From: Actinomycetota bacterium
GTDB lineage: Bacteria > Actinomycetota > Thermoleophilia > RBG-16-64-13
Direction of reading: 5' to 3'
DNA: 12,429 nt
NCBI GenBank assembly: GCA_023488925.1
Contig: JAMDDA010000026.1
Span: 1-12,429, forward strand
The position numbers and the translations under genes were made by a program. Under the pieces are notes generated by a model, which saw only the letters and a list, made by a program, of their open reading frames with translations, had not been told where the DNA came from and made no database searches. This document shows, in pieces, positions 2,733 to 12,429 of the stretch; the stretch's first letter is position 1; every line of letters begins with the position of its first letter.

Positions 2733-3746
2733 TCAGCCGGCCAGCTCGCGGACGCGGGCCGCGATAGCCCGGCCCATGGCCATGGTACCCGCGCTGCCGC
2801 CAAGGTCGTAGGTGACCATCTTCCCCGCCCCGATCACATCCTTGGTCGCCTGGAAGAGCCGGTCGGCCGCCTCGCGTTCTCCCAGGTGGCGGAGCATGAG
2901 CACGGCGGAGAGGATCAAAGCGGTGGGATTCACCTTGTCTTGCCCCGCGTACTTGGGGGCCGAACCGTGAACGGGCTCGAAGAGGGCCACCTCGACCCCG
3001 ATGTTGGCCCCCGGGGCCACCCCGAGACCACCCACCAGACCGGCGCAGAGGTCGCTCACGATGTCACCGTAGAGGTTGGGGCATACCAATACGTCGTACA
3101 GCTCGGGTTTCTGCACGAGCTGCATGCACATGTTGTCGACGATGCGATCCTCGAACTCGATGTCCGGATACCCGGCGGCCACGTCGCGGGCCGTCTCCAG
3201 GAAGAGCCCGTCGGTGAGCTTCATGATGTTGGCCTTGTGCACGGCAGTGACCTTGCGGCGACCCTCCCGGCGGGCATACTCGAAGGCGAAACGACAGATG
3301 CGCTCGGAACCCGCGCGGGTGATGATCTTGATGGACTCGGCCGCGTCCTTACCCACCATGTGCTCGATGCCGGCATAGAGGTCTTCCGTATTCTCGCGCA
3401 CTACGACCAGGTCGATGTCCTCGTAACGCGACCGCACACCGGGGATAGTGACCGCCGGCCGCAGGTTGGCATAGAGATCGAGGGCTTTCCGCAGAGCCAC
3501 GTTCACGCTGCGGAACCCGGAACCTACCGGAGTGGTGATGGGACCTTTGAGGCCTACCTTGGTCTCCCGCAGGGAAGCGAGCACCGCATCGGGAAGCGGC
3601 GTGCCGTAGCGTTCCACGACATCCGTCCCGGCCTCCATGTCGCGCCACTCGATGGCCACCCCGGTGGCTTCCACGGCCACCTTGGCGGCCGCCATGATCT
3701 CCGGGCCGATGCCGTCGCCGGGGATACAGGTGACTACGTGCGCCAA
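2733..3746 (-). CDS. icd: Isocitrate dehydrogenase, short NAD-IDH-type scaffold with NADP-type cofactor residues
   Basis: Oxidative decarboxylation of isocitrate to 2-oxoglutarate in the TCA cycle. The protein is about 337 residues, the short bacterial/IDH3 size. Motifs seen: N-terminal [11 protein letters not shown], substrate-binding [33 protein letters not shown], the catalytic Lys region [11 protein letters not shown], and metal-binding [17 protein letters not shown]. The C-terminal cofactor segment reads [15 protein letters not shown], which is the NADP-type sequence of E. coli Icd, instead of the D-I form of NAD enzymes. Start: TTG 3746 has AAGGAGGA four bases upstream. ATG 3776 is an alternative that overlaps the GNAT stop (ATGA), but it has no Shine-Dalgarno and would encode the ribosome-binding site as QGG. 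Homoisocitrate dehydrogenase was considered because homocitrate synthase genes lie upstream. The substrate loop is of IDH type, so I prefer isocitrate. Confidence 0.88.
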
Positions 3747-3749
3747 CAC

Positions 3750-3757
3750 TCCTCCTT
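3750..3757 (-). promoter_or_regulatory. Ribosome-binding site deciding the icd start
   Basis: Minus-strand AAGGAGGA is the strongest ribosome-binding sequence near the icd N-terminus. It lies four bases before TTG 3746, inside the frame that would be read from ATG 3776. A GTG at 3749 is too close to it. Confidence 0.5.
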
Positions 3758-3772
3758 GCCTCTTCCGGGCTC

Positions 3773-4162
3773 TCATCCCAGATACGTGTCAGGGGGCGCC
3801 TGCGGCACCCGGTACTCGATGGCGTCCTGCCCCGGATCGACGTTCTCCTGCCGGAACACCGCGATCCGCTCCACGGCCGAGGCTCCCGCGGTCAGACGCC
3901 GGACGATCTCGTCGTCCAGGCCGAGGCCGCGGTACTCCTCGTCGACCACTACGTCGAACACCAGCTTGTGCAGAGAATCGAGCTTGTGGATGCGCCCGAA
4001 TCCCACGAGCTGCCCTTCGCGGTGGCAGGTGACCCATTCCGCCGACGCGGCGATGGCCCACTCCACCTTGGCGGCGGATTCGTTCTCGCGCCAGCCGGCC
4101 CGGACGAAAAGGTCGGCCAAGGCGGCGACGTCGATCTCAGCGTTGTGGGCGAACTCGAACAC
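3773..4162 (-). CDS. GNAT-family N-acetyltransferase
   Basis: Small cytoplasmic acyltransferase of 129 residues. The acetyl-CoA-binding motif A is visible as [20 protein letters not shown] (about residues 71-90), with the R-x-x-G-x-G/L pattern. It is preceded by the usual beta-strand pairs ([14 protein letters not shown]). The C-terminus [15 protein letters not shown] resembles the end of small GNAT proteins of unknown substrate. The only usable start in the frame is GTG 4162, because an in-frame TGA lies six codons upstream; its ribosome-binding sequence is weak. An 81-base gap separates it from the small gene upstream. The stop overlaps the ATG 3776 codon of the icd frame, so it probably shares a transcript with icd. 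Substrate and role cannot be read from the sequence. Confidence 0.8.
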
Positions 4163-4481: not shown

Positions 4482-5684
4482 CTACCGGGAGCGCCCCCGA
4501 GCCAGTAGAGGCAGCCGACAGGCGGGCCCAGCGTGCACGCCCCGGGGTCGGCGCACCCGCCCGACCGCCAGGGCCTCTTCATAGGCCAGCATGATCCGCT
4601 CCACCACCGTACTCCAGGCATAGCGTTCCACCGCGCGGATCCCCCGGGTGGCGGCGGCGGCTCGACCCCGCGGGTCGTCCAGGAAGTGCACGAGCTCCCG
4701 CGCCAGGGCGTCCGGATCGCCCGGAGGCACCAGCCGCCCGAGCGCGCCGTCGTGCAGGACACGGCGGTAGCCCGGCAGGTCCGAGGCCAGCACCGGTACC
4801 CCGGCAGCCAGACCCTCCACCAACACCAGCCCGAAGCTCTCCCCGGAGAGGGAAGGCACGCACAACACCTGAGCTTCCCCCATCTCCCGGACCTTCGTCT
4901 CATGATCCAGCCGCCCCAATGCGGCGAGGCCGCTGGTGCGCCTCACCGAGCAGCCATCGACCCTCGCAAGAGCCGCATGGACGTCGGCCCAGTCAGGTCC
5001 CACCATCACCAGGGTCGCGTCACGATGGTACATCCGCACCCGCGGGAAGGCCTGCAGGAGCACCGACAGCCCTTTGCGCGGCTCGGCGCGACCCACGAAG
5101 AGAATGCGGCCGGGCGTCTTCGCCATCCCCCGGGCCGCGGCATAGTCGGCCACCCGCACGCCGTTTGGAATCACGCGGTAATCTCCGGGAAACCGATCGG
5201 CGACGAAATCGCGGGCCGCCTCGGACACCGCGATTTTCACCGCCAGCCGATCGATGACACGCCGGGCCGCCGGAGCAAACGCTTTGTACAAGGGCGAGTT
5301 CTCTCCGGCCGCGTGGAACGTACCCACGATGGGCATGTCGCCGACCAGCACCGCGGAACCGGCCACCGACGGCGTGCAGGGCTCGTGCACGTGCAGGATG
5401 TCGAAACCGCCCTCCGCAAGAAGACGGGCCATGCGGCGCGGCATGAGCGGCCATACGTTGACGTACGCCTTGGAACCGTTCGAGGGAAAGGGGACCGCCG
5501 AGCCCGCAGACAATAGCCTGTCGAACACCGCGCCCCGGCGGCGCGGGCCCACGGGACGGCCGATCGGGGCTATGATCCAGGGGTCGTGGCCGTGGACCTG
5601 CAGTTCCCGAGCCAGCGAGGCGATATGGTCGTTGACGCCACTGGGCACGTCCCACGAATATGGAGACACCAGCCCGACACGCAT
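4482..5684 (-). CDS. GT4-family glycosyltransferase, PimA-like (phosphatidylinositol mannosyltransferase type)
   Basis: Retaining GT-B glycosyltransferase of 400 residues. The N-terminus MRVGLVSPYSWDVPSGVNDH closely follows the actinobacterial PimA pattern (CPYSWDVPGGVQxHV), and HVHEP (98-102) is the acceptor-side motif. The C-terminal Rossmann domain has GRAEPRKG (198-205), the phosphate-binding loop of GT4 enzymes. It also has the EX7E motif with E282 and E290 in GESFGLVLVEGLAAG, which binds the GDP-sugar. PimA adds the first mannose to phosphatidylinositol at the cytoplasmic membrane face. Start ATG 5684 has GGAGG seven bases upstream, 16 bases after the plsY stop. Residues after about 375 are Arg/Pro-rich and probably unstructured. 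Donor and acceptor are inferred from family resemblance, so a glycosyltransferase for another membrane lipid is possible. Confidence 0.85.
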   Translation of the reverse strand: MRVGLVSPYSWDVPSGVNDHIASLARELQVHGHDPWIIAPIGRPVGPRRRGAVFDRLLSAGSAVPFPSNGSKAYVNVWPLMPRRMARLLAEGGFDILHVHEPCTPSVAGSAVLVGDMPIVGTFHAAGENSPLYKAFAPAARRVIDRLAVKIAVSEAARDFVADRFPGDYRVIPNGVRVADYAAARGMAKTPGRILFVGRAEPRKGLSVLLQAFPRVRMYHRDATLVMVGPDWADVHAALARVDGCSVRRTSGLAALGRLDHETKVREMGEAQVLCVPSLSGESFGLVLVEGLAAGVPVLASDLPGYRRVLHDGALGRLVPPGDPDALARELVHFLDDPRGRAAAATRGIRAVERYAWSTVVERIMLAYEEALAVGRVRRPRGVHAGPACRLPLLARGRSR

Positions 5685-5700
5685 GAGATCGCCTCCACGT

Positions 5701-6327
5701 CTATGACGGTTCCCTGTCGAACATCAGCCTTTCCCAGACAACCCTGCCCGAAACCAACCCGGACCAAGCACCCGGGCCGCGCAGGCGTGGCTCTATGACC
5801 AGAGCCATCTGCGCGGCGGTCCAGGCGACCGCGACCCGCGACCGCCCCAGCAGGAGCCGGACCACCGGATACGTGACGTAGCCCGCGAGGACGGCCGGCG
5901 CGTGCAGCTTCACCAGCGTACCACTGACGATGCCGGAACCGACGATCACCAACCCGACAGGGTCGCCGGCCATGGCCGTCCCCAGAGCGGTGGCGGCGCC
6001 CTTTCCCCTCACGACAAAGACATGCGCGGCCACGGGAGCGAAGCCGAGGGCACCCAGGATTCCGGGGGAGGCCCCGCTCCTCCTGCCCAGGACCACGGGG
6101 ACGAAGCCCTTGGCCGCGTCCATGGCCAGCACCAGGGCCGCGGGGCCGAAACCCAACGAACGCCTCACGTTCGCCGTGCCGGGATTCCCCGTACCCACGC
6201 GGTCGATGTCCACGCCGAAGGCCCGGCCCACCAGGCGCGCACTGGGCAGGCTGCCCAGTGCGAATGCGGCTCCCAGGGCCAGCGCCGTGTGGCTGCGGGA
6301 TCTCGCCCCGCGCTTCTTGCGGCTCAC
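5701..6327 (-). CDS. plsY: Glycerol-3-phosphate acyltransferase PlsY
   Basis: Integral membrane acyltransferase that makes lysophosphatidic acid from acyl-phosphate and glycerol 3-phosphate, the first step of phospholipid synthesis. It is 208 residues, the normal length. The three family motifs are present: GSLPSARLVGR (motif 1), GTGNPGTANVRRSLG (motif 2, usually SGNxGATN) and RGKGAATALG (motif 3, usually GGKGVAT). Several hydrophobic helices separate them. Start GTG 6327 is preceded by GGAGGG about seven bases upstream and overlaps the stop of the flippase-like gene (GTGA). The frame is open further upstream, but that stretch lies inside the neighbouring gene. It sits between a flippase-like gene and a PimA-like glycosyltransferase, which ties the block to membrane lipid assembly. 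Confidence 0.92.
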   Translation of the reverse strand: MSRKKRGARSRSHTALALGAAFALGSLPSARLVGRAFGVDIDRVGTGNPGTANVRRSLGFGPAALVLAMDAAKGFVPVVLGRRSGASPGILGALGFAPVAAHVFVVRGKGAATALGTAMAGDPVGLVIVGSGIVSGTLVKLHAPAVLAGYVTYPVVRLLLGRSRVAVAWTAAQMALVIEPRLRGPGAWSGLVSGRVVWERLMFDREPS

Positions 6328-7325
6328 TGCCGGCCCTCCACCCCGCGGCGCAGACCGAGAGTCAGAGCTCCCAGGCCCACCGGGATCAGCCAGGTGGTCG
6401 CCCGCCAGACCACGAGCGACGCCAGCCGAATGCTTTCGGGAACCGAAGGGCCGATAAGACTCAGGTAGCCGAGCTCGGCGACACCCCCACCGCCGGGAAG
6501 AGGCGAGAGCGGCATCAGCACCTGCACCACGGCCTGGCCGACCACGATGGGCCAGATGCCCCCCCGCCAGCCGTACGCCAACAGGATCAAAACGAGGAGG
6601 GCGAACATGGCGACCCAGTAGACGACCTGCAGCGCCACCAGGCAGACCAGGATGCGCGTCTTTGCCCGTCCCAGGTCGGCCATCGCCCGCCGCATGGCGA
6701 ACACCCCGCGACGCACCCGCTCCGGCACCAAAGAGACACCCAGGGGCCGGCGCAGCCAGAGCCAACCGAGCAGCCACGCCGCTCCGAGCCCGATCGTGGC
6801 CGACACGAGGATCAGACGCTGCAGGGGGGTCAAGAGCGACGCCGTTCGCGGAAGCAAGGCGGCCAGAGCCACGCCGGCGAGCACCATGGTGTGGACGAAG
6901 CCCTTCACGATGACGGCCGAGGTGGCCTGCGAGACGGAGAGGCCGAGGCGGCGCAGGCGCATGACCTGATAAGGGATCTCCAGCCCTCCAAAAGACGTGG
7001 CTCCCCCCACCAGATGGGCCTCGAGGGCGGCTGCCACCGTCCCCCAGCGGGAAGCTTCCGGCACGAGCATGCGCACCGGGAGCACCAGGGAGGCGGCATC
7101 GGCCGCCAGAGCCACCGCCAGAGCCAAAGCCACGAGCCCGAAGAGCGCCGGCCGGCCGGCCTGGTCGCCTGCCGTCTCCAACTCCCGGCCCACGTGGGGG
7201 TTCACCACGAGCACGACAACCACCGCCACGCCAAGACCGGCGACCATGCCCAGCAGCATACGAGACCAGCGGAGCGGCCCGCGCACGCCGGCGGCGGAGC
7301 CGTTGGTCGGAACGCCCTCCTTCAT
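6324..7325 (-). CDS. YbhN/UPF0104 (AglD-like) flippase-domain membrane protein
   Basis: Integral membrane protein of 333 residues with about seven hydrophobic segments. These include LLGMVAGLGVAVVVVLVV near residue 25, LFGLVALALAVALAADAASL near 60, and a long pair around 225-255. The hallmark of the LPG-synthase transmembrane/UPF0104 family is present near residue 280: PLSPLPGGGGVAELGYLSL, matching the usual PTPGGxGxxE. The internal LVGGATSFGGLEIPYQVMRL also fits the family. Members are implicated in lipid or glycolipid transfer across the membrane, or are the membrane domain of MprF-like proteins; no synthase domain is present here. ATG 7325 overlaps the stop of the upstream GT4 gene (ATGA) and the downstream junction with plsY is GTGA, so translation is tightly coupled. 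The transported lipid is unknown. Confidence 0.85.
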   Translation of the reverse strand: MKEGVPTNGSAAGVRGPLRWSRMLLGMVAGLGVAVVVVLVVNPHVGRELETAGDQAGRPALFGLVALALAVALAADAASLVLPVRMLVPEASRWGTVAAALEAHLVGGATSFGGLEIPYQVMRLRRLGLSVSQATSAVIVKGFVHTMVLAGVALAALLPRTASLLTPLQRLILVSATIGLGAAWLLGWLWLRRPLGVSLVPERVRRGVFAMRRAMADLGRAKTRILVCLVALQVVYWVAMFALLVLILLAYGWRGGIWPIVVGQAVVQVLMPLSPLPGGGGVAELGYLSLIGPSVPESIRLASLVVWRATTWLIPVGLGALTLGLRRGVEGRQ

Positions 7326-8464
7326 CCCTGGGCCGCCCGTATCAAGAGCTCCCGATATCGCGGGCCCACCACTGCGGGAGCGTGGCGGCCCAGGCTGAGG
7401 CGCCGCCCCCGCTCGCCCATCCTGCGCCTGGCCGTCTCCGTCAGGCTCAGCAGACGGCCGAGCCCGGCCGCCACCTCCTCCGCCCGCCTCCCCTCGACGA
7501 CGATGCCGCCGTCTCCGGGAGACACCGCCTCCGGCGCGCCGCCCGACCGTCCGGCCAGGACAGGCAGGCCGGCAAGCGCGGCCTCGGTGAAAACCAGGCC
7601 GAAGCCCTCCACCTCGCGTCCACCCCAACGACTGCGGCAAGGCGAGGCGAACACGTCGGCCGCCCGTAGCCAGCGGCGGACCTCCTGTGCAGGGAGCGCC
7701 CCGAGAAGACGCACCCGGTCCGCCACGCCGCGCCGCCGGGCCCGCCTGTGTAAAGCCCGGTGCAGCCTTCCGTCTCCGATCAGCGCCAGCTCCACGGTGG
7801 GGTATGCGTCTGCGAGAAGGGCCAGCGCGTCGATCAGGACGTCCTGGCCCTTGCGGGGCACGAGCCGCCCCACACAGACCACCAAGGGTCCCCGGACTCC
7901 CAGATCCCGGCGCGTGGCCTCCACTCCCACCCGATCCCTCGGAAGGAACCCGCCCGGATCGATGGCGGGGCGAAGCACCGCCACCGGCGTCTCTCCACCC
8001 GCCTGGCGGTACGCCTCCGCGGCGGTGAAGCTACTTACCGCCACCAGCAAGGAGGCCCGGCGCAGGACGTGGCGGAGAGCCGAGCCGACTCCCGGGAGGG
8101 CCGCGGGCAGGGTGACCTCCGCCCCTCCCAGGAAAACCAGATACGGACGCCCGGTACGGCGGGCCAGGAGCGGGCCCAGCAAACCCACGGGCAGAGGATG
8201 CCCCAGCTGGACGAGGTCGAGCCGTTCCCCGCGGATCAGCTCCTCGGCGCGGTGGAGCAGCGAAGGGCTCGGCAACAGGATCGATTCGCGGGCCCGCACC
8301 ACCCGGTAGGGGTGGCGGGCATCGAACGCGGCCGCATCTCGATGCCCGGGAGCCAAGACCACGACGTCGGCCGGATCGAGGGTCCGGATAAGCCCCCAGT
8401 AATGCGACTGCGCCCCGCCGATGCGCGGGGGGAAGTCGTTGGTGAGGAAGAGGGACCGCGGTAC
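7322..8464 (-). CDS. GT4-family glycosyltransferase, PimB'/MgtA-like; 5' end unresolved
   Basis: Retaining GT-B glycosyltransferase of about 380 residues. N-terminal domain: RSLFLTNDFPPRIGGAQSHY, the PimB'-like start. C-terminal domain: VGRLVPRKGQDVLI (phosphate loop) and the EX7E segment EGFGLVFTEAALAGLPV followed by GRSGGAPEAV. PimB' adds the second mannose to phosphatidylinositol mannosides; here the donor and acceptor are inferred. The first canonical start in this frame is GTG 8362, but about 32 conserved residues lie upstream of it in the same open frame, from 8458. The frame stays open to a TGA near 8620 with no ATG, GTG or TTG between. I therefore mark the 5' end provisionally at GTA 8464. 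An ATC at 8509, with AGGA upstream, is another candidate. The stop overlaps the next gene's ATG. Confidence 0.82.
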   Translation of the reverse strand, partial: VPRSLFLTNDFPPRIGGAQSHYWGLIRTLDPADVVVLAPGHRDAAAFDARHPYRVVRARESILLPSPSLLHRAEELIRGERLDLVQLGHPLPVGLLGPLLARRTGRPYLVFLGGAEVTLPAALPGVGSALRHVLRRASLLVAVSSFTAAEAYRQAGGETPVAVLRPAIDPGGFLPRDRVGVEATRRDLGVRGPLVVCVGRLVPRKGQDVLIDALALLADAYPTVELALIGDGRLHRALHRRARRRGVADRVRLLGALPAQEVRRWLRAADVFASPCRSRWGGREVEGFGLVFTEAALAGLPVLAGRSGGAPEAVSPGDGGIVVEGRRAEEVAAGLGRLLSLTETARRRMGERGRRLSLGRHAPAVVGPRYRELLIRAAQG

Positions 8465-8510: not shown

Positions 8511-9734
8511 TCAGTCCTCGTCCGTGGCCCCGACGTGCTTGGCCTCCCGGCGTTCCTGGTCTCGGCGCATGAAGTCCTGGTAGATGTACATGAGCTCCTT
8601 GTCGAAGAGCGCGCGCTTCATCTCCACGGCCATCTTGCGCACCATCGCCAGGATCTCGGATGCCTCCTGGTCGGAGAGATCGATGCCGAACTCCTTGAAC
8701 TTGTGTTGGATCGTCCGGCTGCCGGAGTGCTTGCCCACCACCAGCTGCCGGGTGAGGCCCACCTCGTCGGGACTGAAGACCTCGTACGTGAGCGGATTCT
8801 TGATGACACCGTCGGCGTGAATGCCCGACTCGTGGGCGAACACGTTCGTGCCGACGATCGCTTTCCAGATGGGGATGGCCCGGCTCGAAGCCCGAGCCAC
8901 GTACTCCGAGATCTCCCGGAAGTGGTGCGTGGAGATGCCCAGGTCGAGATCGTCCAGAATCTTGAGGGCCATGACCACCTCTTCCAAGGCGGCGTTGCCC
9001 GTGCGCTCACCCAAGCCGTTCACCGAGACGGTGACGAACCGGGCTCCCGCGCGGATACCGGCCAAGCTGTTGGCGGTGGCCATGCCGAAGTCGTTGTGAC
9101 AGTGCACTTCCACATCGATCGACACCGTATCCAGTATGGTCTGGATAGTCTGGAAGGCACGGAAAGGATCGAGCACCGAGAGGGAGTCGCAGAAGCGGAA
9201 GCGCTCCGCTCCCATCTTCTCCGCGGTCACGGCGTAGGTGAGCAGGAAGTCCATGCTCGTGCGCGACGCGTCTTCGGCCGAGACGACGAAGGGCAGACCC
9301 CGATCGGCGGCCGCCAGGGCCGCCTCCTCCACCTGGCGCAGCACCCAACTGCGATCCTTGCCGTACTTCTTGCGGATGTGGATGTCGGAGGTGCTGGCCG
9401 AGATGACCACTCCGTCCACCCCGCATTCGGCGGCCAGAGCGATGTCGTCGGCGACGGCCCGGCAAAAAGCCAGAGTACGCGCCTCGAGGCCGGAGGCCGC
9501 GATCTCGGCCATGGCCTCGCGCTCCTCGGGGCACAGCCAAGGGCTGCCCACCTCGAGCTCGTGCACCCCGATGTCGGAGAGGAGCCGAGCGATGCGCACC
9601 TTCTCTTGATTCGCGAAAACCACGCCCGCGGTCTGTTCGCCGTCGCGCAGGGTGGTGTCGACCAGGTACACCTGGGCCTTGGCCCCCTTGAAATGGGATT
9701 CGAACTCCCCGGCCCGGCGCCCCCTAGGCTTCAT
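8511..9734 (-). CDS. Homocitrate synthase family protein (NifV-like), copy with intact HESGIHADG motif
   Basis: DRE-TIM metallolyase family aldol-type acyltransferase of 407 residues. NifV-type members condense acetyl-CoA with 2-oxoglutarate to homocitrate. TIM-barrel motifs: VDTTLRDGEQTAGVVF (25-40, the DRE signature) and VEVHCHNDFGMATAN with the metal ligands H211 and H213. The glycine-rich NGLGERTGNAALEE follows. The C-terminal subdomain motif AHESGIHADG is intact (H301, H306). The normally conserved barrel loop EAGIPxMG reads EVGSPWLCPEE (61-71), which may change acceptor specificity. Start ATG 9734 has GAGGTGG about five bases upstream and overlaps the end of its paralogue by 11 bases. 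It could serve lysine synthesis by the aminoadipate route, a cofactor pathway, or isopropylmalate/citramalate-like chemistry. No nif genes are visible. Confidence 0.85.
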   Translation of the reverse strand: MKPRGRRAGEFESHFKGAKAQVYLVDTTLRDGEQTAGVVFANQEKVRIARLLSDIGVHELEVGSPWLCPEEREAMAEIAASGLEARTLAFCRAVADDIALAAECGVDGVVISASTSDIHIRKKYGKDRSWVLRQVEEAALAAADRGLPFVVSAEDASRTSMDFLLTYAVTAEKMGAERFRFCDSLSVLDPFRAFQTIQTILDTVSIDVEVHCHNDFGMATANSLAGIRAGARFVTVSVNGLGERTGNAALEEVVMALKILDDLDLGISTHHFREISEYVARASSRAIPIWKAIVGTNVFAHESGIHADGVIKNPLTYEVFSPDEVGLTRQLVVGKHSGSRTIQHKFKEFGIDLSDQEASEILAMVRKMAVEMKRALFDKELMYIYQDFMRRDQERREAKHVGATDED

Positions 9735-10998
9735 CGCCCACCTCGCTCGGGACGGAGACGGTGTCGACGGCGGCGTCCTCGACCAGGTCGCGATCCGCCC
9801 TCTCGGCTTCCCGCAGCTCCTCGCGCACCTCGTCGATCATGCCTCGGTAGATATCGAGCAGCTCTTCGTCGAAGAGCGCCCGCTTCAGGGCCACGCTCTT
9901 CGAGCGGATCCGCAGGATGAGGGCGGCCGCCTCGTCGGGAGTGACCGAGATGCCGTGTTCCGCGAGCTTCAGGCGGAGCGAGTCGACGCCCGAGTACTTG
10001 CCGAGCAGGAAGCGTCGCTGCAGCCCCACCGCCTCGGGTGGGAAGATCTCGTAGCTGGTGGGATCGACGAGGGCGGCGGAGGCCCGGTTCTCGCTCTCGT
10101 ACACGAAGAGGTTGGCCCCCACGATGGGCTTCCAGGTAGGAATGGGGCGATTGGAGGCGTGGGCCACATACTCGGACAGCTCCCGGAACTTGCCCGTGTT
10201 CAGGTCGAGGTCGAGGCCCTCGATGTACTGGAGGGCCATGGCCACCTCCTCCAAAGCGGCGTTGCCCGCCCTCTCCCCCAGCCCGTTGACCGTGGTGTTC
10301 ACGAAGCCTGCTCCGGCCTTGATGCCGGCGATGGCGTTGGCCGTGGCCATGCCGAAGTCGTTGTGGGTGTGCATCTCCACGTCGATGCCAACCACGTCGA
10401 TGATCGTCTTGATCTTCATGAAAGTGTTGAAGGGATCGAGAATCCCCAGGGTGTCACAGAAGCGCAGACGGTCGGCGCCTGCCTCGCGGGCGACGCGGGC
10501 AAAGGCCAGCAGAAACTCCATGTCGGAGCGGGAGGCATCCTCGGCGTTCACCGAGACGTAGACGTTGGCCTCCTTGGCGAAGGTCACCGCTCTCTTGACG
10601 CATTCGAGGACCCACTCGCGGCTCTGGCGGAGCTTGTGCTCGATGTGGATGTCGGACGACGACATGGAGATGGCCACCGCATCCACCCCGCAGCGCAACG
10701 AGGCTTCGATATCGGAGACGACCGCGCGGTTCCAGGCCAGGATGCTGCAATTCAGGTCCATGGACGCGATCTGGCGAACCGCTTCCCATTCGTCCCCACC
10801 CATGGTGGGGATACCCGCTTCGATCTGGTAGACGCCGACCTCGTCCAGGAGCTTGGCGATGCGCAGCTTCTCCTCGTTGGCGAAAACAACCCCCGCCGTC
10901 TGTTCTCCGTCCCGGAGGGTAGTATCGTCGATGTGTACCTTGGCCGGTACCCCGTCGGACGGCCGCTGGAGAAAATAGCCCCCGAAATTCTCCCGCAT
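9724..10998 (-). CDS. Homocitrate synthase family protein (NifV-like), copy lacking the conserved His motif
   Basis: Second DRE-TIM metallolyase paralogue, 424 residues. About half of its positions match the downstream copy by eye. It keeps DDTTLRDGEQTAGVVFANEE (24-43), the canonical barrel loop EAGIPTMGGDE (60-70), the metal-binding MHTHNDFGMATAN (H210, H212) and NGLGERAGNAALEE. In the C-terminal subdomain, AHESGIHADG is replaced by VYESENRASA, so both conserved histidines are gone (Y300, R305). The following SYE is kept, and the C-terminal ALFDEELLDIYRG matches the paralogue. Start ATG 10998 has AAAGGAGA six bases upstream. The frame stays open to 11358, but that extension runs into the regulator gene and lacks a ribosome-binding site. 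It is the first gene of the long minus-strand set, directly behind the divergent promoter region. Confidence 0.84.
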   Translation of the reverse strand: MRENFGGYFLQRPSDGVPAKVHIDDTTLRDGEQTAGVVFANEEKLRIAKLLDEVGVYQIEAGIPTMGGDEWEAVRQIASMDLNCSILAWNRAVVSDIEASLRCGVDAVAISMSSSDIHIEHKLRQSREWVLECVKRAVTFAKEANVYVSVNAEDASRSDMEFLLAFARVAREAGADRLRFCDTLGILDPFNTFMKIKTIIDVVGIDVEMHTHNDFGMATANAIAGIKAGAGFVNTTVNGLGERAGNAALEEVAMALQYIEGLDLDLNTGKFRELSEYVAHASNRPIPTWKPIVGANLFVYESENRASAALVDPTSYEIFPPEAVGLQRRFLLGKYSGVDSLRLKLAEHGISVTPDEAAALILRIRSKSVALKRALFDEELLDIYRGMIDEVREELREAERADRDLVEDAAVDTVSVPSEVGDEA

Positions 10999-11188: not shown

Positions 11189-11665
11189 GTGGACGGCAAC
11201 CCGGAACCGCAGCTCGGCCTGGACATGGGCCGCATCGCTTCCGACCTGCGCGAGAAAGGGCTGCGGCTCACCCGCCTGAAGCGGGCCGTGCTGCGGCAAT
11301 TCGCCGACGGCGCCTGTGCGTTCACGGCGGAGGAGCTGGGGATGCGCATCGGCATCACCGGCGACCTCTCCCCCCTCTACCGCTGCCTGGCCTCGCTGGA
11401 GGACGCCGGCGTTCTCACCCATCTGTACTTGGACGAAGGCTTCCGCCGATACGATCTGGCCGACGCCTACGGCCGTCACCATCACCATCTGCTCTGCACC
11501 GGCTGCGCCTCGGTGGAGCGCATCGAGTGCGGTCTGGCCGAGCACCATGTCGCCCGCCCGGCGCACGAGCAGGGCTACGTGCTGCGCGACCACCACCTGG
11601 TGTTGCGCGGGCTCTGCCCCAACTGCCAGAAGATCGGCAGGAGGCGGGAGGCGCGGGATCCATGA
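11189..11665 (+). CDS. zur: Fur-family metal-dependent regulator, probably Zur
   Basis: DNA-binding metalloregulator of 158 residues, normal length. The winged-helix N-terminal domain includes GLRLTRLKRAVLRQF (25-39) and the recognition helix SPLYRCLASLEDAGVL (61-76, usually STVYRTLxxLExxGLV). The dimerisation domain has HHHH at 97-100. It also has two cysteine pairs, C103/C106 (CTGC) and C143/C146 (CPNC), that form the structural zinc site. GTG 11189 follows GGAGG by four bases. ATG 11225 (residue 13) is an alternative start without a clear ribosome-binding site. The stop overlaps the next start (ATGA). Zur is preferred over Fur or PerR because the partner gene encodes a ZnuA-type binding protein; the sequence alone cannot fix the metal. 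It is divergent from the homocitrate synthase genes, with a shared 190-base promoter gap. Confidence 0.85.
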   Translation: MDGNPEPQLGLDMGRIASDLREKGLRLTRLKRAVLRQFADGACAFTAEELGMRIGITGDLSPLYRCLASLEDAGVLTHLYLDEGFRRYDLADAYGRHHHHLLCTGCASVERIECGLAEHHVARPAHEQGYVLRDHHLVLRGLCPNCQKIGRRREARDP

Positions 11666-12429
11666 CCCGGGAGCCCCGTCTCGGCCCGACGGCACGCCCG
11701 TGCATGAGGTACTCGGCCGGGGCGGCGCCGGTCACGCCTCCCCGGGCCGTCACGCGTCCGGTCGTCGCGCCTCTGGCCGCGGTGCCCCTGGTCGGCGTGC
11801 TCCCGGTCGCCGCGCCTCTGGCCGCGGTACGCGCCCTCGGGCGTCTGGTCGCCGGGCGCGCCGCCGTGCCTCTGGCCGCGGCCGGCGCCGCCGCGCGTCT
11901 GGCTGTGGTGCTACTGGCTGTGGTGCTGTCGGCGGGTCTGCCGGTCGCCGGCGGTTGCGGGGGGCCGGCTGCGAGCGACGGCCGGCCGCTGGTCGTGACC
12001 TCGGTACCCCTCATCTACTCCTTGACCGCCAACGTAGCCGGTGAGGCCGTGCGGGTGGAGGAGCTCCTCCCCCCCGGAGCCTCCCCCCACCAAACCAACT
12101 TCACCCCGGCTCAGGCCAGGCTGCTGGCGGAAGCGGATATGCTCATCGTCAACGGAGCCGGCCTGGAGCTCTGGGTGGACGATCTGGTGAAGAGCTCGGG
12201 CAACCCGGACCTGCGGGTGGTGGTGGCTTCCAAAGGCGTCACCCTGCTGCGGCCCAACGAGCCGACCCCCATCCCCGGCTCGGCCGGCGGCGGCGAAAGC
12301 ACCGGCGGCGCCGACCCCCATGTCTGGCTCGATCCGGCCAACGCTCTCGTGATGGTGGACAACATCCGTGCCGCCCTGAAGGCGCTCGACCCGTCCGGCG
12401 CTGCCGGCTACGCCCGCCGCGCCCCGGCG
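11662..12429 (+). CDS. znuA: ZnuA-type metal (zinc/manganese) ABC transporter binding lipoprotein, 3' end cut
   Basis: Substrate-binding protein (cluster A-I/ZnuA family) of a metal importer, 256 codons visible and open at the right edge. Family motifs: VVTSVPLIYSLTANVAGE, LPPGASPHQTNFTPAQARLL with the first metal His, ADMLIVNGAGLELWVDDL, and DPHVWLDPANALVMVDNI with the second metal His. The His-rich loop typical of ZnuA is replaced by a short Gly/Ser/Pro segment (PTPIPGSAGGGESTGGA). The lipobox is AGGC, with Cys at residue 99 when read from ATG 11662, which overlaps the regulator stop (ATGA). That gives an unusually long leader of repeated Ala/Pro/Leu/Val. GTG 11866 would give a normal signal peptide (Cys at residue 31), but it lacks a clear ribosome-binding site. 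Permease and ATPase genes are expected just outside the window. Confidence 0.85.
   Translation, partial: MTREPRLGPTARPCMRYSAGAAPVTPPRAVTRPVVAPLAAVPLVGVLPVAAPLAAVRALGRLVAGRAAVPLAAAGAAARLAVVLLAVVLSAGLPVAGGCGGPAASDGRPLVVTSVPLIYSLTANVAGEAVRVEELLPPGASPHQTNFTPAQARLLAEADMLIVNGAGLELWVDDLVKSSGNPDLRVVVASKGVTLLRPNEPTPIPGSAGGGESTGGADPHVWLDPANALVMVDNIRAALKALDPSGAAGYARRAPA
11762..11882 (+). repeat. In-frame degenerate repeats in the ZnuA leader
   Basis: The 17-mer GCGCCTCTGGCCGCGGT occurs exactly at 11767 and 11812, with a close variant at 11866. The spacings are 45 and 54 bases, both multiples of three, so the reading frame is kept. The encoded peptide repeats as APLAAV / APLAAV / VPLAAA. The surrounding bases are almost all G and C with short CTGGCC/GCCGCG words, which suggests slippage expansion. 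Confidence 0.6.

Follow-up and report, generated by a model that had tools for sequence, protein, structure and literature searches.

Contig JAMDDA010000026.1 of an Actinomycetota bacterium, analysed here over its 12,429 nucleotides (the window), carries two consecutive full-length paralogues of the DRE-TIM barrel synthase family, here called copies A and B, and the question that this locus raises is whether they encode two enzymes or two subunits of one, and what they produce. The initial annotation had described two paralogues sharing 11 bases, each with a different motif loss, and our coordinates and motifs agree with it; it had also placed a DRE signature and an HxHND metal site in both copies, which is true in the window. 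From comparative sequence analysis, we conclude that A and B very probably form an obligate heteromer in which one subunit contributes the barrel and the other the lid, derived by complementary degeneration, and that their product is probably citrate, the entry point of the citric acid cycle, made by a Re-type citrate synthase (acetyl-CoA + oxaloacetate -> citrate), a function that fits genome content and neighbourhood better than the name homocitrate synthase which the initial annotation had given them. The two claims taken jointly, a heteromeric enzyme with Re-citrate synthase activity, still appear likely.

PF00682 (HMGL-like TIM barrel) and PF22617 (HCS_D2 lid) domains are found in each copy, the latter scoring 48 bits in A and 96.3 bits in B, and DTTLRDGEQ is present in both (Table 1). 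The metal sites of A and B are both intact in the window, and B has lost metal ligands in one group of relatives. A ribosome-site-like GAGGTG stretch lies immediately upstream of B's ATG, and we infer from the junction sequence that translation of the two genes is coupled. Rfam and tRNA scans of the window gave no match.

Table 1. Positions in the window of the two synthase genes, their diagnostic motifs and the downstream dehydrogenase gene
Feature	Position	Strand	Detail or basis
Copy A, predicted barrel (catalytic) subunit	9724..10998	(-)	424 amino acids, ATG at 10998, lid motif lost
Copy B, predicted lid-donor subunit	8511..9734	(-)	407 amino acids, barrel altered
A/B overlap, 11 bases, ATGAAGCCTAG	9724..9734	(-)	Junction sequence
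A barrel loop EAGIPTMG, canonical, residues 60-67	10798..10821	(-)	Sequence and alignment
A metal site HTHND, residues 210-214	10357..10371	(-)	Sequence and alignment
A degenerate lid motif VYESENRASA, residues 299-308	10075..10104	(-)	Aligned A-type rows (45, near-identical ones removed)
B altered barrel loop EVGSPWLC, residues 61-68	9531..9554	(-)	Sequence and alignment
B metal site HCHND, residues 211-215, intact in window genome	9090..9104	(-)	Sequence and alignment
B intact lid motif AHESGIHADG, residues 300-309	8808..8837	(-)	Sequence and alignment
Isocitrate/isopropylmalate-family dehydrogenase	2733..3776	(-)	Best model PRK08997, 441.9 bits, below cut-off 510

Of 238 matches, 163 rows remained once near-identical ones were removed, and in these the losses of the two copies are crossed. 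None of the 45 distinct A-type rows has the lid His of the GIH motif (A position 305), its place being taken by Arg in 30 and Lys in 15, whereas this His is kept in 47/47 B-type rows and in 67/67 rows filed as single-copy, two of which are plasmid nifV rows (L165 and L167), as well as in L066, a single-copy gene that was initially filed under A and is excluded from the A counts except that of the barrel. The five barrel residues checked (D30, R91, H210, H212 and R243 in A numbering) are all present in 44/44 rows filed under A (L066 among them) and in 67/67 single-copy rows, vs. only 14/46 B rows, the remaining 32/46 being without the full set. The three metal ligands are kept in 15/46 B rows and at least one is lost in 31/46, of which 30 come from the class of genome G124 and one (L040) from an Omnitrophota bin; in two members of the window's family, G003 and G008, B has lost the SDIHIEHKL stretch. 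Among 120 listed protein matches (of 7999), the lid His is missing in 119, replaced by Arg in 57, Lys in 57, Trp in 4 and Gln in 1. The single His-bearing protein among those listed, P0041, matches window-family A rows in its barrel (88% identity) and L108 (Bacillota) in its lid and C-terminus (100% identity), and is probably a chimera joined from two species during metagenome assembly; a viral-contig scan with P0041 returned no relative.

Regional conservation divides along the same line. With the nifV rows excluded and L066 moved to the single-copy group, mean within-group identity is 0.78 for A, 0.59 for B and 0.73 for single-copy rows in the barrel, vs. 0.57, 0.86 and 0.80 respectively in the lid, and mean identity to the single-copy consensus is 0.73 for A and 0.51 for B in the barrel, vs. 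0.50 and 0.77 in the lid. For 39/39 complete pairs, the A barrel is closer than B's to the single-copy consensus and the B lid is closer than A's. Ratios of nonsynonymous to synonymous substitution rates (dN/dS) within the window's family are 0.03-0.09 for the A barrel (four comparisons, the fifth being saturated) and 0.13-0.39 for the A lid and C-terminus, vs. 0.08-0.21 for the B barrel and 0.01-0.10 for the B lid and C-terminus. Because the same motif states recur in the inspected pairs, and because dN/dS over the whole gene stays at 0.07-0.19 when the copies are compared with relatives (ten comparisons, five for each copy; B vs. G001 covers B's first part only, and synonymous sites in A vs. 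L160 are near saturation), the states seen in the window are not a matter of chance. A candidate pairing between A Arg/Lys305 and a changed B residue 91 was set aside, with no consistent pairing by eye in the alignments.

The pair is present in 8/18 genomes of the window's family (f1, the window's own genome included), among 119 relatives searched with A; B is cut by a contig break in G012. A contig scan (best 80 of 571) and its follow-up place the pair also in other Actinomycetota, in Anaerolineae and in other Chloroflexota, and once in the Omnitrophota bin G120 (L040), on a 3.6-kb contig that carries the A motifs of Actinomycetota L041 and is possibly misbinned. Within G124's class, 33/40 genomes have a match at an E-value of 1e-95 or better, and in these both genes were seen directly in 26, the partner is cut or frameshifted in 4, a contig edge intervenes in 2 and a single-copy gene with intact lid is found in 1. 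The pair is rare among 251 sampled Chloroflexota genomes (2 with the pair, 3 with a match), and 78 of 396 sampled Actinomycetota have a match, with two matches in G001 and in members of group f13, which by coordinates are the same genomes as the G124's class set; single matches elsewhere were inspected in part. An internal TGA flagged in some f4 genomes was dropped as a candidate feature, no stop lying within the aligned part of six sequences.

Gene order does not vary: in all 43 scored pairs A comes first and B follows in the same orientation, with a gap of -20 to +144 bases (-20 to +3 in 31/43), B starts being picked by a simple rule. Seven apparent lone copies were examined, of which four (G404, G408, G413 and G420) have a partner, cut or frameshifted, two (G412 and G422) stop at a contig edge, and one (G403) is a single-copy gene with an intact lid. 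An A-type, His-less gene without B, which the initial annotation had raised as the case that would speak against a heteromer, was not seen in the genomes inspected, contig ends aside. Its proposal of an obligate heteromer is thus borne out in the co-occurrence of the two copies with the same motif swap, the complex itself being a prediction. In a quick IQ-TREE tree of 91 rows, A forms one clade (Shimodaira-Hasegawa-like approximate likelihood ratio test, SH-aLRT, 98) and B another (100), and A, B and single-copy rows together form one group (99), with three plasmid nifV rows outside it on long branches. The same main groups, namely Chloroflexota, the window's family and G124's class, are found within the A and B clades; since the connecting branches are unresolved in this tree, we claim no branching order among A, B and single-copy rows.

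The way in which two such copies might complete each other is suggested by relatives of known structure. The His of GIH presumably corresponds to residue 379 of isopropylmalate synthase (IPMS), which we take from the match between SGSH and SGIH. A docking study of Mycobacterium tuberculosis IPMS places chain B His379 and Tyr410 near the active site (PMC5498780), and the lid subdomain reaches the partner chain's active centre in SpHCS, TtHCS and a Lys20 model, according to PMC8276798. Because the lid acts in trans in these relatives, an A homodimer would lack the lid His at both sites. We propose that a single-chain enzyme whose lid enters the barrel of the other chain in the dimer would have been duplicated, after which A would have retained the barrel and dropped the lid, and B would have retained the lid while its barrel drifted. 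A complete site would then arise only in an A-B dimer, from the A barrel and the B lid, and the second site (B barrel and A lid) would be dead or changed. What would hold the pair together across several bacterial groups is that the intact half of one copy apparently completes the intact half of the other. We infer a physical heteromer with one live site and oxaloacetate as the acceptor.

Two features of B weigh against obligate pairing. Its metal ligands are intact in the window, in the window's family and in Chloroflexota, and window B has the five checked barrel residues together with the checked lid residues; since B keeps its ligands there, a B homodimer could be active in these groups. 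In addition, in G001, a genome of the same genus, the coding sequence of B is split between two frames near residues 310-322 (L035 7262-8489, a single assembly), which is either a real frameshift or an assembly error.

As for the product, the closest guide is a set of clostridial enzymes and their relatives. Heliomicrobium HM1_2993, annotated as a homocitrate synthase, is reported on deletion evidence to be a Re-citrate synthase, with identities of about 62% to the confirmed Clostridioides difficile Re-citrate synthase, 68% to a proposed Thermoanaerobacter one and 28% to that of Clostridium kluyveri (PMC12016533). The Thermoanaerobacter single-copy loci L087 and L114 are each 62% identical to A, and it is via these relatives and the published identities that the A/B clade is linked to clostridial Re-citrate synthases, the tree being without HM1_2993. 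A 423-residue piece of the gene following that of L087 scores 733 bits vs. an aconitate hydratase model cut-off of 612.

Genome content points the same way. By identity, 30/119 relatives carry the single-copy gene (4 as fragments), with an intact lid in all 22 inspected. The ordinary Si-citrate synthase (PF00285) is absent in 30/30 of these single-copy class relatives and present in 75/81 of those that have neither gene form; it is also absent in 8/10 single-copy genomes outside the class and in 23/25 of the pair genomes that do not belong to the window's family, the exceptions among the latter being the Omnitrophota bin G120 and G132 (short match). L067 and L070 encode phosphoenolpyruvate (PEP) carboxylase, which makes oxaloacetate, immediately before A, and in L061 and L064 the gene for this enzyme precedes the single-copy synthase gene. 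Counting pair rows with at least 3.3 kb of downstream DNA, with the pair loci L152, L153, L154 and L164 listed as singles and L037/L161 and L038/L160 being duplicate genomes, we found an isocitrate dehydrogenase homologue in the same orientation and no more than 6 kb downstream in 19/23 pair rows and 38/50 rows scored single, and an aconitase-family large subunit downstream in 12/23 and 40/50. In the window, the dehydrogenase lies 4.7 kb downstream of B, beyond lipid and glycosyltransferase genes, and is probably the same pathway's isocitrate dehydrogenase. A long aconitase-family gene is found elsewhere in the seven other window-family pair genomes, with none in the incomplete own genome (G000, 65% complete). 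Collectively, these neighbours fit citrate.

A number of observations count against this product assignment. A complete PF00285 gene is present in 5/8 window-family pair genomes (G000, G001, G004, G012 and G013), a 100-residue fragment in G008, and only G003 and G007 are without one; the three genes scanned (G000, G001 and G004) have as best model 2-methylcitrate/citrate synthase II, below cut-off. Use of both kinds of citrate synthase is reported for Clostridium thermocellum (PMC6115520). Among single-copy genomes, G147 has a full-length PF00285 gene and G148 a short match, and 6/81 relatives with neither gene form also lack PF00285. The Chloroflexota loci L051, L065 and L110 show neither a dehydrogenase nor an aconitase-family neighbour, and no hydro-lyase was found between B and the dehydrogenase in the window's family. 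The hydro-lyase of L044, L060 and L073 passes only broad aconitase/homoaconitase subfamily models, and hence does not by itself settle the substrate. Finally, both copies pass the NCBIfam NifV model TIGR02660 (A 478.3, B 483.7 bits vs. a cut-off of 462.9), and a nifH-like match in the pair genome G139 scores 336.5 bits, short of the 394.35-bit cut-off.

The NifV score also supports an alternative that we consider unlikely, in which the obligate heteromer stands and acts as a homocitrate synthase, for aminoadipate lysine, for the nitrogenase cofactor or for other 2-oxo acid elongation; the hydro-lyase and dehydrogenase families adjoining the pair also serve homocitrate pathways. Both copies fail the LysS/Lys20-type model TIGR02146 (A 299.6, B 297.4 bits vs. 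413.55) and the LeuA (2-isopropylmalate synthase) model TIGR00973 (A 267.4, B 290.3 bits vs. 598.7). The nifH gene is over cut-off in 0/8 window-family pair genomes, of which the own genome is 65% complete, and in 0/25 others, and homocitrate for nitrogenase was rejected on this absence from all 33. Since A and B pass TIGR02660 in genomes with no nifH over cut-off, that cut-off may over-call this clade.

A lysine role was considered because LysX is over cut-off in 5/32 pair genomes (G129, G132, G138, G140 and G141, all Chloroflexota); in G138 its gene and the pair are about 5 kb or less apart, and in G132 the two share a contig. In the window's family, by contrast, LysX is over cut-off in 0/8 pair genomes (best 183 bits vs. 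275.6) and LysA in all 8; LysA reaches cut-off in 21/32 pair genomes overall, none of them among the five with LysX. In L060 and L054 the gene immediately before A encodes a homocitrate synthase of the LysS type that exceeds the cut-off (482 bits vs. 413.55), with LysX genes farther upstream of it, and L070 too has a separate one (439.9 bits). Because a dedicated homocitrate synthase is present in such genomes, A-B needs another job there, and homocitrate for lysine is weakened by this finding in 3/3 LysX genomes checked (L054, L060 and L070, with L049 and L067 outside the check) as well as by LysA in the window's family. The lack of Si-citrate synthase in most pair genomes outside that family likewise favours citrate. 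In the two Anaerolineae loci L060 (245-5120) and L054, aminoadipate lysine genes lie directly upstream of the A-B operon, those of L060 being, by family model, LysX, an ArgC-family gene, LysZ and LysS.

Other alternatives concern the division of labour. It is quite unlikely, in our estimate, that A is an enzyme working without the lid His and B a regulatory or stabilising partner. Of the three groups, A indeed has the best-conserved barrel (A-A 0.78), the change in its lid is patterned (Glu303 in 42/45 A-type rows, Arg/Lys305 in 45/45) and not a random decay, and most B rows have lost metal ligands (31/46); yet the region that B conserves is the lid (B-B 0.86 vs. 0.80 in single-copy rows) and not the barrel, as expected if B still shares in catalysis. 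Two separate homodimers with different acceptors, i.e., subfunctionalised enzymes, we regard as very improbable: window B has a DRE signature, metal site and lid together with a changed acceptor loop, but the lid His is found in no A-type row, B has lost metal ligands across one whole group, and, setting aside contig ends, no inspected genome showed the two copies apart. That B is the working enzyme of the window's lineage and A a decaying duplicate is hardly credible, for although window B keeps the checked barrel and lid residues and the A lid is lost, the A barrel (dN/dS 0.03-0.09) is held more tightly than the B barrel (0.08-0.21) and the pair is maintained in two phyla.

The surroundings of the A-B pair vary between genomes. 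Between B and the dehydrogenase, the window encodes on the minus strand (4485-8362) two GT4 glycosyltransferases, an LPG-synthase-type membrane protein and a PlsY-type acyltransferase; these four genes have no homologues at that place in G004 (L162) and G013 (L036), where the dehydrogenase lies about 0.8-0.9 kb past B. Divergent from A, on the plus strand, are genes for a Fur-family regulator and a ZnuA-type metal-binding protein (11228-11662 and 11806-12429), and homologues of both adjoin A in G004, G012 and G013, with a ZnuA homologue in G001. Farther downstream, at 184-2489 on the minus strand, the window encodes the binding protein and ATPase of a polyamine-type ABC transporter (PotD/PotA-like), homologues of which are also found downstream in G001, G004 and G013.

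If the preferred reading of A and B as a heteromeric Re-citrate synthase is true, a central metabolic enzyme would have turned into an obligate heteromer through reciprocal loss, and the single-chain form that persists in close relatives would offer a natural experiment on locked-in complexity. It would also correct the NifV homocitrate synthase annotation given to both copies, and would explain how some members of the Actinomycetota and Chloroflexota that lack an ordinary citrate synthase may produce citrate and glutamate. A further possibility, doubtful but suggested by analogy with NAD-isocitrate dehydrogenase, is that the second site of such a Re-citrate synthase dimer, the B barrel under A's reworked lid (with its conserved Glu303 and Arg/Lys305), has been converted to an allosteric sensor that controls carbon flow into the citric acid cycle.

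Among known systems, the pair resembles the Re-citrate synthases of the HM1_2993, C. difficile and Thermoanaerobacter type in its DRE-TIM barrel and HCS-type lid, and in having relatives with aconitase-family and isocitrate dehydrogenase genes as frequent neighbours. Genes of such enzymes are reported (PMC12016533) to be misannotated as homocitrate or isopropylmalate synthase. Unlike Re-citrate synthase, described as one gene, A-B divides its functions between two full-length paralogues: A does not hold a complete lid and barrel in one chain, its lid being lost, and B keeps the checked residues of both in the window. We found no description of a two-subunit Re-citrate synthase in the parts of the open-access literature available to us, subscription papers lying outside the search. 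The nifV-omega and nifV-alpha genes of Clostridium pasteurianum likewise yield one DRE-TIM synthase from two genes, but there one homocitrate synthase protein is cut in two, whereas A and B are both full-length with complementary losses, and the pair genomes examined have no nifH over cut-off. Further comparisons are the yeast isopropylmalate synthases Leu4 and Leu9, paralogues that form heterodimers and are each able to work alone, and mitochondrial NAD-isocitrate dehydrogenase, which has catalytic and regulatory subunits with one site catalytic and one regulatory. We know of no crossed loss of barrel and lid for them; what the proposed A-B complex would share with these systems is that it is a heteromer built from paralogues of a homo-oligomer.

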